This document shows positions 3,999-52,859 of a stretch of 64,000 nt of DNA, in pieces. Below the pieces are notes generated by a model, which was not told the DNA's origin, searched no databases, and worked only from the letters and a program-made list of their open reading frames with translations. The stretch lies in NCBI GenBank assembly GCA_018666775.1, contig JABIXC010000017.1:1-64000 (forward strand). The letters run 5' to 3'. Positions within the stretch are counted from its first letter, which is position 1, and every line of letters begins with the position of its first letter. The DNA comes from Rhodospirillales bacterium. GTDB lineage: Bacteria > Pseudomonadota > Alphaproteobacteria > SMXQ01. Made by a program: the position numbers and the translations under genes.

Positions 3999-4259
3999 AT
4001 GGCCAGGAAGCAGCCCAAGGGCACGACGAGTTACGTCATGTATGATGTGGTCTTTGATGATGATAGCCGCAATTCAAACTGCAAAGTGCCAGCAGAGGTT
4101 CTTCAAGGCATTGAAGGGGATGGGGCAGTAGAGGCCTATTTCGCAGAGCAGCAAGCCAAGATCGCCGAGATGTCTGGCAAGCAACGGCCCAAGATTGTCT
4201 CCATCGTCCGGTCCGGCAAGAAGAAAGACAAAGACACAAAGAAAAAAGGCAAGAAATAG
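3999..4259 (+). CDS. Small protein of unknown function with Lys-rich tail
   Basis: 86 residues. A clear TAGGAG lies 7 nt before ATG 3999, so translation is credible. Residues 1-70 look folded (TSYVMYDVVFDDDSRNSNC, then an amphipathic stretch), followed by an extremely basic tail, GKKKDKDTKKKGKK. I do not recognise the family. The basic tail could contact nucleic acid or an acidic surface, but this is inference. The 46-bp repeat/terminator copy beginning at 4305 ends its transcript. About 230 bases upstream (3770-3998) hold no gene and an A/T-rich patch near 3895-3915 that may be its promoter. Confidence 0.7.
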   Translation: MARKQPKGTTSYVMYDVVFDDDSRNSNCKVPAEVLQGIEGDGAVEAYFAEQQAKIAEMSGKQRPKIVSIVRSGKKKDKDTKKKGKK

Positions 4260-4304: not shown

Positions 4305-4350
4305 AGCCCTGGCAAATCGCCGGGGTTTTTTGATTTTTAGCGGGTTTTGG
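4305..4350. repeat. 46-bp perfect direct repeat, left copy
   Basis: Runs from AGCCCTGGCAAATCGCC through AGCGGGTTTTGG and is identical, base for base, to 5922-5967. The bases just outside the two copies differ (C/A on the left copy, G/T on the right). The copies bracket the A/T-rich gene at 4470-5888; one repeat plus the unique segment is 1617 bp. Each copy contains a rho-independent terminator. Confidence 0.95.
4307..4331 (+). terminator. Rho-independent terminator in left repeat
   Basis: CCCTGGC pairs with GCCGGGG (seven pairs, one T-G) around an AAATC loop, followed by six T. Placed to end transcription of the 86-residue protein gene. Confidence 0.8.
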
Positions 4351-4409
4351 AGCAGAAAATCAATAGTTGAGTGCGGGCGGATGAAACCTGATTATCTTAG
4401 GTAGAATAA

Positions 4410-4415
4410 TATAAT
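4410..4415 (+). promoter_or_regulatory. Candidate -10 element (TATAAT)
   Basis: A perfect TATAAT lies 55 bases before the start at 4470, in an A/T-rich stretch. The hexamer at the -35 distance is weak. It implies the inserted gene carries its own promoter rather than relying on read-through from the left. Confidence 0.4.
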
Positions 4416-4469
4416 AGTAAATTTCTATAGGTTGTGTAGCATGGGTTAAAATAATTGGGGAGGATTGAA

Positions 4470-5888
4470 ATGGATTTACCTAGCTACCTAAAATCTGGTG
4501 AAGTTGCTCGCTTGTTTCCCGTAATTTCTGATTCTGGGAAAGAACAGAAAGCGACTTCAATTTTTTTATCAGTTTTATCTGCTGTCCCTAAATTTGCAGA
4601 TGGGGTTCTTTCTCAAATTGGTCAGCGTGTCGGTACAAGGGCCATTGTAAATACGTTTATCGAGGTGGTTCCGGCGAAGAGTGTGATCGCTAATAAGAAG
4701 GATCGTCCTGATGGATTAATTGAGGTTCAGGTGGGTAAGAAGCGCTGGCTAGCCCTAGTAGAAGCAAAAATAGGGACCAGCAAGTTGGATAAAAACCAAG
4801 TAGAGCGTTACTTGCAGCTTGCGAGGGAAAACGGCATTGATGCCGTGATTACAATTTCAAATGAATTTTCATCCTCTCCAACGCATTCACCAGTTAAGGT
4901 GAATAAAAACCTTATTCGAAGCGTGCATTTGCTTCATTTCTCATGGACGGCGCTCCTGACGAATGCTGTGTTGATGCATGAACAGGGGGAACGTTTAGAT
5001 ACAGAACAGGCGTTTTTGATACGGGAATTTATTCGTTTCTTTTCACATGAATCTGCCGGTGTGAGCGGGTTTACTTCCATGCCCCCAGCTTGGGGTGAAG
5101 AAATTGGGCATATTCAGGCCGGAGGCTTTATTCAGAAGGGTGATAATGCTGCTGATATTGTATCTGCTTGGTATCAGGAATTACGTGACCTCGCCCTTCA
5201 AATGAGTCGTGCGATTGGTTGTAATATATCATTGAAAATGAGCCGGGCTCATGAAAGCGATCCGGAACTTCGGCTTAAAAATGGATCAGAGTTTTTAGCA
5301 ACCCATGGAAAACTGGAAAGCATTCTGGAGGTTCCGAATGCGGCATCTGACCTATTTATAACGGCGGATCTTCGTGCAAAGTCTATTAAAGTTGCCATGA
5401 AATTGGATGCTCCTAAAGAAAGAAAAACAACCAAGGCCCGGGTGAATTGGTTGTTACGCCAGCTAAAAGATATAAAATTAAATGACGTTAAAGTTGGCGT
5501 GGTATGGGCATCTCGAGTGGCGACCTCATACTTTTCGTTGGAAGAATTATTAGAGAATCCCGAAATTGTGAATGAGGTGACAACGTCCTCAGAGGTTCGA
5601 GCCTTTGAAGTGATCGTTACCACTTCAGATACTCGACGGTTTAAAGGGCGGCGCACTGTCATTGAGGACCTAGAAGATTTAGTTCCCCGTTTTTATGAAT
5701 TTCTTGGACAACATCTTCGTGCGTGGAATCCATCACCACCAAAACCGGTACATTCAGTGCAGGAAAAAGGCAGTACTGATCCCAAAAACCCGCCCATTGC
5801 TAAGAGTGAGGCTGGGATCGCTGGAAATGCACATAATGACTTGCTGGAGATTCCCAATTTCTTGAAGCGGATAAGTGGACAGCTTTAA
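4470..5888 (+). CDS. PD-(D/E)XK nuclease-like protein in a repeat-bounded insertion
   Basis: 472 residues from ATG 4470 (GGAGG 6 nt upstream). The first ~130 residues carry a PD-(D/E)XK core: R79-P80-D81-G82, then E98-A-K100 after a strand (KRWLALVEAKIG), then Q110 and Y114, the usual order and spacing of the fold. The rest (residues ~200-470) shows no motif I recognise. Codons are visibly richer in A/T than in all neighbours, and perfect 46-bp direct repeats bracket the gene, which suggests acquisition by transfer. No methylase, helicase, integrase or toxin/antitoxin partner is adjacent. A solitary nuclease-like gene of this kind could be a single-gene phage-defence factor, but that is inference; a housekeeping or degraded restriction function is also possible. 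Confidence 0.75.
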   Translation: MDLPSYLKSGEVARLFPVISDSGKEQKATSIFLSVLSAVPKFADGVLSQIGQRVGTRAIVNTFIEVVPAKSVIANKKDRPDGLIEVQVGKKRWLALVEAKIGTSKLDKNQVERYLQLARENGIDAVITISNEFSSSPTHSPVKVNKNLIRSVHLLHFSWTALLTNAVLMHEQGERLDTEQAFLIREFIRFFSHESAGVSGFTSMPPAWGEEIGHIQAGGFIQKGDNAADIVSAWYQELRDLALQMSRAIGCNISLKMSRAHESDPELRLKNGSEFLATHGKLESILEVPNAASDLFITADLRAKSIKVAMKLDAPKERKTTKARVNWLLRQLKDIKLNDVKVGVVWASRVATSYFSLEELLENPEIVNEVTTSSEVRAFEVIVTTSDTRRFKGRRTVIEDLEDLVPRFYEFLGQHLRAWNPSPPKPVHSVQEKGSTDPKNPPIAKSEAGIAGNAHNDLLEIPNFLKRISGQL

Positions 5889-5921
5889 AAACTTCTGATT
5901 TCATAAAATTTTAAAGACAAG

Positions 5922-5967
5922 AGCCCTGGCAAATCGCCGGGGTTTTTTGATTTTTAGCGGGTTTTGG
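5922..5967. repeat. 46-bp perfect direct repeat, right copy
   Basis: Identical to 4305-4350. It starts 33 bases after the stop codon of the PD-(D/E)XK-like gene. Loss of the segment between the copies by recombination would leave one intact repeat and one terminator behind the 86-residue protein gene. Confidence 0.95.
5924..5948 (+). terminator. Rho-independent terminator in right repeat
   Basis: Same 7-bp stem, AAATC loop and T-run as in the left copy, here ending the PD-(D/E)XK-like gene. Confidence 0.8.
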
Positions 5968-6050: not shown

Positions 6051-6521
6051 TTGCCGAGTTTTTTTGAGGTGTATCGCGTGGACAGAGAAGCCTATCTAGA
6101 GGCATTGGGAGGCCGGGAATGCATGGAGCGAGTCCATCGCATTTTCTATGGCAAGCTATTGTCTCATCCATGGCTGAAGGGGTTTTTTGAAGGCAAAAGT
6201 CGCGATTTTCTGGAATCCCAACAAACCGATTTCTTCCTGTCAGAGCTGTGCGGCGTTACCGGTTATTTTGGCCGGATTCCGGCATCGGCCCACACCCATT
6301 TGTTTATCACCGATGAAGTGTTCGAATTGCGCCATGTCATTTTGAAAGAAGCCCTGCACACGGCAAAAGTGCCCGTTGAACTGCACGAGCGTTGGTTGCA
6401 ATTCGACATGAGCTTCAAGTCAGGGATGGTCAAGGCATCCATTGATGAATGCAAAGGCCGATACAAAACAGAACCGGTTATTTCTGTTCCAAAACCGGCC
6501 CACAAATCAGCGGTCGCTTAA
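6051..6521 (+). CDS. Truncated (2/2) hemoglobin-like protein
   Basis: 156 residues or slightly fewer. The pattern LGGRECMERVHRIFYGKLL, then LKGFFEGKSRDFLESQQTDF, then GRIPASAHTHL fits the truncated globin fold; the His of the SAHTHL segment is the likely proximal haem ligand. Such proteins bind O2 or NO. It is longer than the ~120-residue norm because of a C-terminal tail (KTEPVISVPKPAHKSAVA). The start is uncertain: TTG 6051, GTG 6069 and GTG 6078 are all in frame, with only a distant GGAG upstream. It stands alone. Confidence 0.72.
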   Translation: MPSFFEVYRVDREAYLEALGGRECMERVHRIFYGKLLSHPWLKGFFEGKSRDFLESQQTDFFLSELCGVTGYFGRIPASAHTHLFITDEVFELRHVILKEALHTAKVPVELHERWLQFDMSFKSGMVKASIDECKGRYKTEPVISVPKPAHKSAVA

Positions 6522-9099: not shown

Positions 9100-9199
9100 G
9101 GCTTAAGCAATCCGACTGAGTGAGCTGATTCTAAGCGCCAGACCCGATTTTCAGGCCCAAGCGGAATAGGGGCTTTAAATATCGCGGTATAACCTAAAT

Positions 9200-9215
9200 G
9201 AGTTATTAACCCTGA
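9200..9215 (+). repeat. 16-bp direct repeat, copy 1
   Basis: GAGTTATTAACCCTGA, repeated exactly at 9415-9430, 215 bases downstream. It could be a regulator-binding site or a trace of duplication. Confidence 0.6.
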
Positions 9216-9414
9216 TGAAATGATTGCGGCATTGTTGCTTCCAAAATTAAGGATGTGTTGGAAACTGGCGGTTTTTAACAAGAAGTTCCGAAGAAAATTC
9301 GGCGATTTTAGCCCATCAGCCCCAACGTTACAGTATTGATAAAACCCACTTTGGTATCAGAGCCGCCCCAATTACGGGACGCTTGATCCGGGCATATTGG
9401 TGTATTTGCCAAAG

Positions 9415-9430
9415 GAGTTATTAACCCTGA
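9415..9430 (+). repeat. 16-bp direct repeat, copy 2
   Basis: Second exact copy of GAGTTATTAACCCTGA, 70 bases before the start of the TctC-type gene. Confidence 0.6.
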
Positions 9431-9500
9431 CCGGAAGGGGTGGTAGGTTGACCCACTCAAAATGGATAATTCGCTTAAAAATCCTTACAGGGGGAAGAAT

Positions 9501-10820
9501 ATGATTTCGAAAAAAATGACAATTTCTCGCGGGCTTGCGGGACTCCTCGGCGTTGCGGTGGTGGCAACCACGACGATGGCGGCGATGGCGGCCTCACCCG
9601 CAGAATTCTATAAGGGCCGCAAATTGCAGATGATCGTCGGCTCCGACCCCGGCGGCGGGTATGACACCTATGGCCGGCTGGTGGCTCGCCATATCGGACG
9701 CTTCCTGCCCGGAAAACCATCCCGGATTATCGTGAAAAATATGCCGGGTGCTGCTTCCATCGTCAGCGTCAATTACGTCTATAATGTTGCGCCTCAAGAT
9801 GGCTCTGTTATGGGTGCCCCCCAGCGGAGTATTCCCTTCGCCCAAATTTTGGGCAAAAAAGGCCCACGTTACTTGTCATCGAAGATCAACTGGTTGGGCA
9901 GCCTCAATAACGAAGCAGGCGTCGTCTACACCTGGCACAAGGCCAAGGTGAAGACCATGCAGGATGCCTTTAAGCATGTGGCAATCTTTGGTGCGGTTGG
10001 TCCCAATGACACGGAATATTATCCATCCCTGTTGAACAACACCATGGGAGCGAAATTCAAATTGGTGATGGGCTATTCATCCTCCACCACCATCCGCCTT
10101 GCCATGGAACGGGGCGAAGTGGAAGGCCAGACCCAGTCTTGGTCATCGCTGCGCAATGGCAATCCAGAATGGATTTCTGGAAACAAGGTCAATGTCTTTG
10201 TGCAGTTGTCGTTGAAGAAACATCCAGACCTGCCCAATGTGCCGTTGGTGTTTGATTTCATCACCAAGGAGCAGATCCTGCCACAGTTCACCGTCGATGA
10301 GGTCAAGACCTATTGGCGTTTGATGCTGACAGAAAAGGCCATGGGCCGTCCCTTCATGCTGGGCCCAAAGGTCCCTGCAGATCGGGTTGCTGCCATGCGC
10401 AAGGCCTTCACTGCCATGGTGTCAGAGAAGAAATTCCTGGCAGAAGCCAAGAAACGCAGGCGTGAGATTGTCTTTGTTTCCGGTGGTGAAATTCAGAAAA
10501 TGATTGGAAGCATGGCAGCCGCGCCAAAAAAGACCATTGAGAACCTGGCCAGCCTGATCCGCTACAAGGGGCCGATCAAGCGGGTAAAGGAAGCCCTGGC
10601 GCGCCATTCCGGCAAGGTCACCAAGACCAAAAAAGGCGGTCGCCGTATTTACCTTATGTTTAAGGGTAAAGAAGTGAAGGCCAAGGTTTCGGGATCGCGC
10701 ACCAAAGTCATGCTCAACGGTAAAAAGGTGAAGCGCAAAAAAATCAAGGCTGGCATGACCTGTACCTTCGTCTATCCGGGTGCCGGCCAGGAAGCGAAAG
10801 AAGTGAACTGTAAGAAGTAG
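9501..10820 (+). CDS. TctC/Bug-type periplasmic binding protein with basic two-Cys C-terminal module
   Basis: 439 residues from ATG 9501, preceded by GGGGGAAG. After a signal peptide ending near AAMAA, the binding-protein fold begins KLQMIVGSDPGGGYDTYGRL, the hallmark of tripartite tricarboxylate transporter receptors, and includes KKHPDLPNVPLVFDF. No tctA/tctB genes are nearby, so it is an orphan receptor. Residues ~377-439 are extra compared with normal Bug proteins (~300-330): a Lys/Arg-rich segment beginning KKGGRRIYLMF and ending in GMTC, a Tyr-Pro-Gly-rich turn and a final Cys, spaced C-x15-C. The same module occurs at the ends of the products of 19515 and 49765. A terminator follows. 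Confidence 0.88.
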   Translation: MISKKMTISRGLAGLLGVAVVATTTMAAMAASPAEFYKGRKLQMIVGSDPGGGYDTYGRLVARHIGRFLPGKPSRIIVKNMPGAASIVSVNYVYNVAPQDGSVMGAPQRSIPFAQILGKKGPRYLSSKINWLGSLNNEAGVVYTWHKAKVKTMQDAFKHVAIFGAVGPNDTEYYPSLLNNTMGAKFKLVMGYSSSTTIRLAMERGEVEGQTQSWSSLRNGNPEWISGNKVNVFVQLSLKKHPDLPNVPLVFDFITKEQILPQFTVDEVKTYWRLMLTEKAMGRPFMLGPKVPADRVAAMRKAFTAMVSEKKFLAEAKKRRREIVFVSGGEIQKMIGSMAAAPKKTIENLASLIRYKGPIKRVKEALARHSGKVTKTKKGGRRIYLMFKGKEVKAKVSGSRTKVMLNGKKVKRKKIKAGMTCTFVYPGAGQEAKEVNCKK

Positions 10821-49764: not shown

Positions 49765-51069
49765 ATGCGTAAATCACATTCTATACTCTTGTCTATTGTA
49801 AGCTTGGCGATTGTCGGCGGCCTTTCCGGTCAGTCTGCATCGGCAGACGCAATCAGCGATTTTTACAAAAAAACACGGCTCAAGGTTATCGTCGGCTATT
49901 CGCCCGGTGGTGGGTTTGATCGTGGTGGCCGTGTCGTTGGTCGCCATATTGGCAAATATATTCCAGGCACCCCAAAGACAATTGTCCAGAACATGCCCGG
50001 TGGTGGTTCTATGCGTTCGTTAAACTGGCTGGCCCAGAAGGCCCCTAAAAATGGTGCGGCCATTGGTCATTTCCATCCTGCCGCCGTGCGTGAGCATTTG
50101 CTGGGTGGCAAGGGCGTAAAGTTTGATCCGCGTAAATTCACTTGGCTGGGCAGTTATAACCGCGAACGTGCGGTGACCTTTGTCCGCGCTGGTCGCGGCA
50201 TCAAAACAATCCAAGATGCCATGGAACGTGAAGTGATCATTGGGGCCACATCGCCACGCTCTGGCGGGGGGGCATATCCCCAGATTATGAATCATGTTCT
50301 CGGCACCCGTTTTAAAGTTGTGGTTGGCTATGGTTCCACGGGTGAAAGCACGTTGGCCATGGAACGGGGCGAGGTTCATGGCATTGGTTCATGGTCGTGG
50401 TCCCAAATAAAGAGCCGCAAGAAAAAATGGCTCAAGGATAAATTCATCAATGTTCTGATCCATGTGTCTATTGCCAAGCATCCGGACCTTCCCCATGTGC
50501 CGACACCGCTTGACCTGGCCAAGACCAAGGACGACCGCGATGTTCTTGAAATGATTTTTGGTTATCAGGAATTGGGTCGGCCCTTTGCGGCACCTCCGGG
50601 AACCCACGCAGAACGCGGCAAAGCGTTGCAAGCCGCCTTTAACAAGATGGTCAAGCAGGAAGACTTCAAAAAGGCGATTGAAATTGCTGGTTTGGAAGTT
50701 TCCGCCATGGACAATAAACAAGTCATGGTCTTGCTGAACAAGTTCTACGGCCTGCCTGCAAAGACCCTGGACCGGGGCAAGACCATTTATGCAGAAATGC
50801 GTTCCGGTCGTTTGTCCAAGGCCAAGAAGAAAAAGACCAAGGGCCTGAAGCTTGTCAAAGTTAAAGGCAAGGGTCGTAAGATGAAGCTGACCTTTAAGGA
50901 TAAATCAGGCCAGACCTGGAAGTTCAAAGCGCGTGAAAAGAAATTGGGCAAAAAGCTGAAGATCAATGGCAAGAAAGCCAAGGTTAAAAGCATGAAGCCT
51001 GGAATGGTTTGCACCATTTCATATTACGGCAAAGGCGGACTTGCCTATTCGGCCAACTGCAAGTCGTAA
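49765..51069 (+). CDS. TctC/Bug-type binding protein with basic two-Cys C-terminal module
   Basis: 434 residues from ATG 49765 (AGGGGAG upstream). Signal peptide to about GQSASADA, then LKVIVGYSPGGGFDRGGRVV and AKHPDLPHVPTPLDL, standard for tripartite tricarboxylate-type receptors. No tctA/tctB nearby. Residues ~350-434 form a very Lys-rich extension: a KKKKTKGLK linker, then KGKGRKMKLTFKDK, KKLKINGKKAKVKSMK, GMVC and a final NC, again spaced C-x15-C as in the products of 9501 and 19515. The AhpD-like gene is divergent, 161 bases away. Confidence 0.88.
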   Translation: MRKSHSILLSIVSLAIVGGLSGQSASADAISDFYKKTRLKVIVGYSPGGGFDRGGRVVGRHIGKYIPGTPKTIVQNMPGGGSMRSLNWLAQKAPKNGAAIGHFHPAAVREHLLGGKGVKFDPRKFTWLGSYNRERAVTFVRAGRGIKTIQDAMEREVIIGATSPRSGGGAYPQIMNHVLGTRFKVVVGYGSTGESTLAMERGEVHGIGSWSWSQIKSRKKKWLKDKFINVLIHVSIAKHPDLPHVPTPLDLAKTKDDRDVLEMIFGYQELGRPFAAPPGTHAERGKALQAAFNKMVKQEDFKKAIEIAGLEVSAMDNKQVMVLLNKFYGLPAKTLDRGKTIYAEMRSGRLSKAKKKKTKGLKLVKVKGKGRKMKLTFKDKSGQTWKFKAREKKLGKKLKINGKKAKVKSMKPGMVCTISYYGKGGLAYSANCKS

Positions 51070-51782: not shown

Positions 51783-52859
51783 ATGATGAAAGCGAGTGTT
51801 CTTCTCGCCGGACTGGGCGCTTTGGCGCTTTTGGGTTCCGGAGCAAGTAATGATGCCAGCGCTGCAGGCGTGGCTAAAGTTTATAAAGGCAAGTCGGTCG
51901 ATGTGATCGTCGGCTACAACCCCGGTGGCGGTTATGACGCTTATACGCGTCTTCTTGCACGCCATATTGGGAACCACATTCCTGGCAAGCCCAGGACCAT
52001 TGTTAAAAACATGGGTGGTGCCGGCAGCCTGAAAGCTGCAAATTATCTGTACAATGTTGCCAAGAAAAATGGCCGCATCTTTGGCATGTTCGCCGGTGGT
52101 GTTGCCATGGATGCATTGATCGGGGGTCGCAAGACCCGCTTTGATCCGCTCAAGTTTAATTGGCTCGGGTCTATGACAGAATCTTCCAGTGCTTGTTATG
52201 CCTGGCATACCACGGGCTTTAAAACCCTGAAGGATGTCATGAAAAAGGGCGGCAAGCGGATGATCCTTGGTGCATCTTCCGGTGGGTCTTCCACGGCAGC
52301 ATGGCCGAAGACGATGAATGCCTTTATTGGCACCAACTTTAAGGTCATCACTGGCTATAAAGGCTCCAAGGGCATTATTCTTGCCATGGAACGTGGTGAA
52401 GTGCAGGGCTTATGCGGTTACTTTATCTCATCGATCCGCAATGTTCGCCCAACCTGGTTGAAGGAAGGCAAGGTCGTTATGTTGGTTCAGGAAGCCAAAA
52501 AACGCCATGCTGATTTCCCCAACATCCCAACCGTGTTTGAATATGCCAAGAACAAGGCAACCAAACAGGCCTTTAATCTGGTCTTTGGCTGGCAGGTCAT
52601 GGGTCGTCCCTTTACCTTGCCACCAGGGGTTGCCCCGGACCGCGTCGCAGCAATGCGCAAAGCTTTCTGGGATACGATGCAGGACAAAAAGTTCCTGAAA
52701 GATGGCAAGAAAAGCCGTCTGACGATCAAGCCCCGGACCTACAAGCAGGTTAATGCCTATCTTAAAGAAGCCTGGGCATCACCAAAGAAAGTCGTGAAAT
52801 CCGTCTTTTATGCATTGGATCGCGACAAGAAAAAGCATAAGAGAAAGAAGAAAAAATAA
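51783..52859 (+). CDS. TctC/Bug-type binding protein with short poly-Lys tail
   Basis: 358 residues from ATG 51783 (AGGGAG upstream; a second ATG follows at 51786). Signal peptide to about NDASAAGVA; VDVIVGYNPGGGYDAYTRLL and KRHADFPNIPTVFEY are the receptor motifs. In place of the two-Cys module it ends in KKKHKRKKKK, as if only the linker remains. Orphan receptor; forms the second AhpD-like/TctC divergent pair. Confidence 0.9.
   Translation: MMKASVLLAGLGALALLGSGASNDASAAGVAKVYKGKSVDVIVGYNPGGGYDAYTRLLARHIGNHIPGKPRTIVKNMGGAGSLKAANYLYNVAKKNGRIFGMFAGGVAMDALIGGRKTRFDPLKFNWLGSMTESSSACYAWHTTGFKTLKDVMKKGGKRMILGASSGGSSTAAWPKTMNAFIGTNFKVITGYKGSKGIILAMERGEVQGLCGYFISSIRNVRPTWLKEGKVVMLVQEAKKRHADFPNIPTVFEYAKNKATKQAFNLVFGWQVMGRPFTLPPGVAPDRVAAMRKAFWDTMQDKKFLKDGKKSRLTIKPRTYKQVNAYLKEAWASPKKVVKSVFYALDRDKKKHKRKKKK

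Follow-up and report, generated by a model that had tools for sequence, protein, structure and literature searches.

The window, by which we mean the entire 64-kb stretch of DNA analyzed here, appears to carry a horizontally acquired one-gene nuclease cassette, probably anti-phage, that was inserted with a long target duplication of a kind that varies from site to site; we consider this explanation fairly likely.

A single foreign-looking gene between perfect terminator repeats

The cassette is delimited by a 46-bp direct repeat, present in two identical copies with a spacing of 1617 bp, as the original prediction had it; what it stated about the sequence otherwise proved right, too. The locus includes the following features:

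3999–4259, + strand: gene for an 86-residue host protein (p86) with the duplicated terminator; flanks the insert on the host side (open reading frame and profile search)
4305–4350, + strand: left copy of the 46-bp repeat, intrinsic terminator after the 86-residue gene (repeat search, folding, terminator scan)
4351–4469, + strand: A/T-rich leader of the insert, with a presumed promoter and a GGAGG ribosome site (sequence)
4470–5888, + strand: gene for the predicted 472-aa PD-(D/E)XK nuclease (open reading frame, alignment, structure models)
5922–5967, + strand: right copy of the 46-bp repeat, terminator of the nuclease gene (repeat search, folding, terminator scan)
6051–6521, + strand: downstream gene for a globin-like protein, likewise on the host side (PF01152, E 2.6e-5)

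This is the only pair of perfect direct repeats of 46 bp in the window, and a search that allowed up to 3 mismatches detected no further matches to the 46-mer in the 64 kb (0 in 100 shuffles). As anticipated, each copy comprises an intrinsic terminator, with an 8-bp stem and a 5-nt loop followed by T6 (−15.3 kcal/mol; the hairpin within the 46-mer is CCCTGGC-AAATC-GCCGGGG), and both copies were also picked up by a terminator scan. The left copy starts about 45 bp past the stop codon of the 86-residue gene, and the right copy about 33 bp past that of the 472-residue gene. The GC-rich 21-nt core of the repeat, AGCCCTGGCAAATCGCCGGGG, searched with up to 3 mismatches against the whole 2.41-Mb genome, was found only at the two repeat copies; the 46-mer is therefore not a dispersed terminator. 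Two further candidate identities of the repeat were discarded. A phage attachment site was rejected given that an exact 29-nt pattern from the 46-mer is absent from IMG/VR and that no integrase element with the same site was found; an integron gene cassette was rejected given that no attC character was seen in what is a plain terminator hairpin with an 8-bp stem, present at two places only.

The sole gene between the repeat copies encodes a protein of 472 aa, with the ATG preceded by GGAGG, and neither an integrase nor a transposase is encoded between the two repeats, in agreement with the initial description of the insert. Promoter-like matches in the leader are no more numerous than expected by chance. 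The composition of the insert is A/T-rich and foreign-looking, with a G+C content of 0.431 compared with 0.522 for the window; equally low values were obtained for only 2 of 624 segments of the same size. The neighbors of the nuclease gene in the window encode MsrA, the 86-aa protein, the globin, and a 199-aa protein, none of which is a defense gene, and no cognate DNA methyltransferase gene adjoining the nuclease gene was found in the window.

Elsewhere in the window, a 27-bp stretch recurs at positions 10101–10127, 50356–50382, and 52383–52409 (copies 85% identical); by eye, the gene at 9462–10820 appears to encode a tripartite-transporter-type substrate-binding protein, and the recurrences may reflect paralogs. 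This gene is preceded by imperfect 37-bp copies (78%) at 9179–9215 and 9394–9430, 215 bp apart and both ending in GAGTTATTAACCCTGA, a possible regulatory repeat.

A predicted PD-(D/E)XK nuclease with a possible chaperone-like C-terminal domain

The 472-aa protein produced no family match in searches against Pfam, NCBIfam, PADLOC, and PHROG, and no match to solved structures in a sequence-profile search; weak matches to DO-GTPase2 and ZPR1 (E about 0.1) were treated as chance. Judging from these comparisons, the protein is a member of an undescribed family. The PD-(D/E)XK-like residues that had been recognized at the outset, P80-D81, E98-x-K100, Q110, and Y114, are present at these positions, and an alignment of 32 members shows D81, W93, E98, K100, Q110, and Y114 to be invariant, along with N131, H156, W159, G197, M204, and W208. 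In the AlphaFold model of the full protein, which was built from four sequences and has a mean pLDDT of only 67, residues about 20–190 form a predicted PD-(D/E)XK core of the alpha-beta-beta-beta-alpha-beta type (helix 24–48, strands 58–64, 82–88, and 91–99, helix 108–120, strand 125–130), with D81 located before strand 2 and E98-x-K100 closing strand 3. The predicted fold thus contains the nuclease site that the original prediction called for. Structure comparisons with this model matched EcoT38I (E 1e-4), AF1548 (Z 8.1), AspBHI, MspJI, and PaqCI (Z about 5–8), and FokI, McrC, and Cap4 (Z 5–7), and a search of a viral structure library yielded nothing beyond generic restriction-endonuclease-like matches. 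Taken together, the D...(D/E)xK site in the alignment and the core fold in the model place the protein in the PD-(D/E)XK superfamily, and we predict that it is a stand-alone endonuclease bearing QxxxY, which, following ExK, is a motif of RecB/Cas4-type nucleases.

The C-terminal domain (residues about 230–420) was also modeled alone, with a pLDDT of 77.5 and a pTM of 0.76. Its structure matches are dominated by type III secretion chaperones and YbjN proteins (Z 5–8), including Spa15 (Z 7.7, rmsd 3.6 over 126) and YbjN (Z 7.5, rmsd 4.0 over 134); other folds matched are those of AmyR, ExsC, and CesT. Judged against the alpha-beta3-alpha-beta2-alpha succession taken to define the TY-chaperone fold, and with all Z scores below 8, the model is suggestive of a TY-chaperone-like fold (type III chaperone/YbjN); a Foldseek search with this domain gave no match with an E-value below 0.001. 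The structure search with the C-terminal half retrieved no DNA-reading domain such as SRA or B3, an absence that is uninformative. Domains of the TY-chaperone type are reported as components of bacterial immune systems (PMC9503650).

Sporadic distribution and defense context of the family

Homologs of the nuclease were identified in 21 of the 385 genomes sampled from the same class (Alphaproteobacteria, about 5%, the source genome included), 12 of the 398 genomes of the phylum sample, 12 of the 369 genomes (about 3%) of another proteobacterial class, and one further genome-contig record (L013); none was found in the ten further genomes that represent this family or order. Additional homologs are encoded on 11 Rhodococcus and Streptomyces plasmids, where the annotation assigns them to a TerD protein, with the TerD domain fused at the N-terminus; the proteobacterial proteins that were examined come without the TerD part. 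Two phage contigs also carry homologs, and no homolog was found among the INPHARED phage records. In the genomes G169 and G780 (L052 5493–7999; L122), the homolog is split into two reading frames and is perhaps decaying. Across about 30 loci and some 250 neighboring ORFs, no conserved neighbor, be it an antitoxin, a methylase, or another gene, was detected, so that the gene travels alone; in most cases, it stands apart as a transcription unit set off by intergenic DNA. Taxa are intermixed in the family tree, and horizontal mobility of the nuclease gene is the best reading.

The surroundings of several homologs include phage or defense genes. On one phage contig (L099), the nuclease gene lies just ahead of genes for an HNH protein, terminase, and portal, and on the other (L098), a serine integrase, a terminase, and a ParB-methyltransferase are encoded alongside the homolog. 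The last of these genes (L098 2646–4001), near that of the serine integrase, has a ParB-like part ahead of its DNA methyltransferase part. Other loci encompass a type IV restriction enzyme (L073), a DISARM/Brx-like helicase with a DRT-type (DRT-associated) exonuclease (L043), a SIR2 protein (L076), and a large helicase (L045) near the homolog, and the TerD-fusion loci of Rhodococcus have ThiF, JAB, and DUF6602 genes nearby, with a SIR2 gene, too, in one of them. On the Rhodococcus plasmids L034 (12279–16130) and L084 (783–4640), the ThiF, Mov34/JAB, and DUF6602 genes near the TerD-nuclease fusion form a set that is possibly a ubiquitin-like defense operon. The original prediction had suggested checking homologs for a location in defense islands, and several do lie near defense genes; this tally is supportive only, because the count has no matched control. 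From this context, we infer that the family nuclease is probably defensive, most likely anti-phage.

The nuclease might instead be a stress or DNA-repair enzyme that spreads horizontally, an alternative we regard as tenable and yet rather unlikely. The TerD fusion in Actinomycetota, suggestive of a TerD-linked stress response, and the QxxxY motif that the protein shares with RecB/Cas4-type nucleases fit such a role; the sporadic distribution, the carriage by phages, and the defense neighbors are more typical of defense. Because this alternative concerns function only and could hold alongside any mode of insertion, its probability and those given below for the modes of insertion are not mutually exclusive shares.

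Duplications of different length around the gene in relatives from separate clades

Evidence on the mode of insertion comes from repeats that straddle the gene in other genomes. Straddling repeats of at least 20 bp were detected at 3 of the 49 homolog loci, compared with 1 of 1062 control intervals from the same contigs. With the window omitted, because it had been chosen for having a repeat, the count is 2 of 48 (one-sided Fisher p 0.008 against an earlier set of 830 controls, with rows that are not fully independent). The single control with a 20-bp perfect repeat (L037) adjoins a possible tandem pair of related genes. In a gapped repeat search, controls also scored at low identity, probably owing to repeated or paralogous coding sequence. 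The remaining 46 of the 49 homologs have no recognizable flanking repeat, and hence the repeat is not a fixed feature of the family.

The two relatives found in repeat-bounded cassettes, which the original prediction had suggested looking for, differ substantially from the window and from each other. In G026, about 400 bp are duplicated on both sides of the gene, with 99% identity where the sequence could be read, given an N gap in the second copy; the repeat takes in the 3′ end of a DUF6134 gene, and a search of this genome retrieved only the intact DUF6134 gene and one 3′-terminal fragment on the far side. In G246, the repeat consists of 21 perfect bp inside 52 bp at 79% identity and contains the last codons and the stop of an FMN oxidoreductase gene, the far copy being a diverged form of the same C-terminus (KTETTKAMVRG* versus KTETAKAKAMVRG*). 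A congener of G246, G148, has the nuclease gene at the same place, and another one, G013, has the same two neighbors and no nuclease gene, that is, an empty site, which is too diverged for a base-by-base reading of the single repeat copy. The three repeat-bounded members fall in separate clades of the tree, and their duplications, of 46 bp, about 400 bp, and 21 bp (52 bp diverged), are different in sequence each time; in all three cases, host DNA from a gene 3′ end or terminator is duplicated around the nuclease gene. For the window itself, no empty site was found among the family members, where the msrA-p86-globin gene order is not kept; the homologs of p86 and the globin in genomes of the same family are 27–41% identical and have other surroundings.

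Mode of insertion and a possible mechanism

By analogy with the two other members and the empty site elsewhere, we propose that, at the window locus, the nuclease gene entered the genome directly behind the 86-residue gene, duplicating 46 bp that include the terminator of that gene. The host gene would thus retain its terminator and the newcomer would gain its own, and the newcomer would therefore be an insulated transcription unit. The insertion machinery would most simply be repair or a single cross-over of gene-bearing DNA at short homology. Of the two modes of insertion originally envisaged, target duplication at a terminator thus gains support from the two analogous members and the G013 empty site; site-specific integration at a common att site becomes less likely. 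None of the three results that would have told against the original prediction was obtained: a dispersed 46-mer, relatives uniformly free of repeats, or a predicted fold devoid of the nuclease site.

Quite unlikely, in our estimate, is passive homologous recombination, whereby a donor with the gene beside a p86 terminator would have contributed it through a single cross-over or a tandem-duplication intermediate that left two terminator copies, with the gene playing no part in its own transfer and selection merely keeping it. The far copy in G246, a diverged host 3′ end, is what donor DNA or an old duplication would give, but the identity at the window locus amounts to just 46 bp, and no donor with such an arrangement was found.

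Site-specific integration in trans through a tyrosine recombinase, with the 46-mer as att and the gene as an integrase-less passenger, is distinctly improbable. A perfect repeat that holds an inverted repeat, sits at a gene end, and keeps the gene intact would be in keeping with it, the hairpin resembles a recombinase core as well, one homolog is on an integrase-bearing phage contig, and the genome encodes four tyrosine recombinases, all on contigs other than that of the repeat. However, the genome contains no further copy of the 46-mer, so that no resident integrase element shares it, and the exact 29-nt pattern is absent from IMG/VR. The other repeat-bounded members, moreover, have repeats of other sequences and sizes (21 and about 400 bp); because the three duplications vary in both respects, a phage-type mechanism that relies on one shared att site is less likely.

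A very improbable further proposal is that the gene is a mobile unit of a novel sort, in which the nuclease drives its own spread by cutting chromosomes at or near gene 3′ ends, with repair inserting its gene along with long target duplications, and with the chaperone-like domain or the fused TerD tying the cutting to phage infection or stress. Finally, the chance that the repeat is accidental or an assembly product is negligible: the draft assembly comprises 19 contigs, but the repeat consists of 46 identical bases, a result not obtained in any of the shuffles, and lies inside a 641-kb contig with unique flanks.

Under the preferred reading, insertion of a defensive nuclease gene with target duplication, the target would be a phage or a plasmid. 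Without a methyltransferase partner, the nuclease must be restrained otherwise, either by recognition of modified DNA or by activation via the chaperone-like domain. We infer that activation or targeting through a protein-sensing domain is to be favored over modified-DNA recognition; the C-terminal domain would sense a protein or nucleoprotein that is foreign or altered, and would then release nuclease cutting.

Comparison with known systems

For restriction-modification genes, descriptions of long target duplication date back more than 20 years, and we know of no agreed mechanism. These genes insert with long, variable target duplications (Nobusato 2000 and Furuta 2010, via PMC3031569, PMC3874152, and PMC1643837). 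The present case is similar in that a nuclease gene would be inserted as a unit without an integrase or transposase and is flanked by direct repeats of host origin that measure from tens to hundreds of bp, the length of which depends on the site; unlike the insertions described there, it involves a lone nuclease gene without a methyltransferase and duplications at gene 3′ ends or a terminator. A family of single genes, three members of which come from different clades and are flanked by duplications of unequal size, is a simpler system in which to study the process; if one nuclease gene moves by long target duplication, the question of whether its own nuclease activity is required can be asked.

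With respect to the protein, a type II restriction-modification system is not matched, there being no cognate methyltransferase beside the nuclease in the window or conserved across the family. Type IV enzymes (MspJI-AspBHI, McrC, Mrr) and EcoT38I-type enzymes share the predicted nuclease core fold and the D-ExK site, and the type IV enzymes need no partner methylase; unlike all of these, the present family shows no sequence family match and has a C-terminal domain that, as modeled, resembles chaperones and YbjN rather than a known DNA-reading domain. Shedu is a sporadic single-gene PD-(D/E)XK defense system that combines a nuclease with an extra domain. The family nuclease likewise is one protein with a predicted PD-(D/E)XK nuclease and an extra domain, and occurs sporadically; unlike Shedu/DUF4263, it has no PADLOC match and just one weak, unrelated Pfam match up to E 1. 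Integron cassettes differ in their attC ends and their array at an integrase, neither of which is matched by the terminator-hairpin repeat.

The TY-chaperone domains of immune systems (PMC9503650) are akin to the C-terminal domain in its modeled resemblance to Spa15, YbjN, AmyR, ExsC, and CesT; unlike in those systems, the domain is joined to a PD-(D/E)XK nuclease, and no ADP-ribose system genes were seen alongside. This architecture, a nuclease plus a chaperone-like fold, appears to be unusual and is missed by PADLOC. TerD-family proteins are related through the N-terminal fusion on the Rhodococcus and Streptomyces plasmids, with the proteobacterial members examined lacking TerD. Overall, this is an unnamed, fairly widespread family of predicted nucleases that is scattered in Proteobacteria, fused to TerD in Actinomycetota, and carried by phages.
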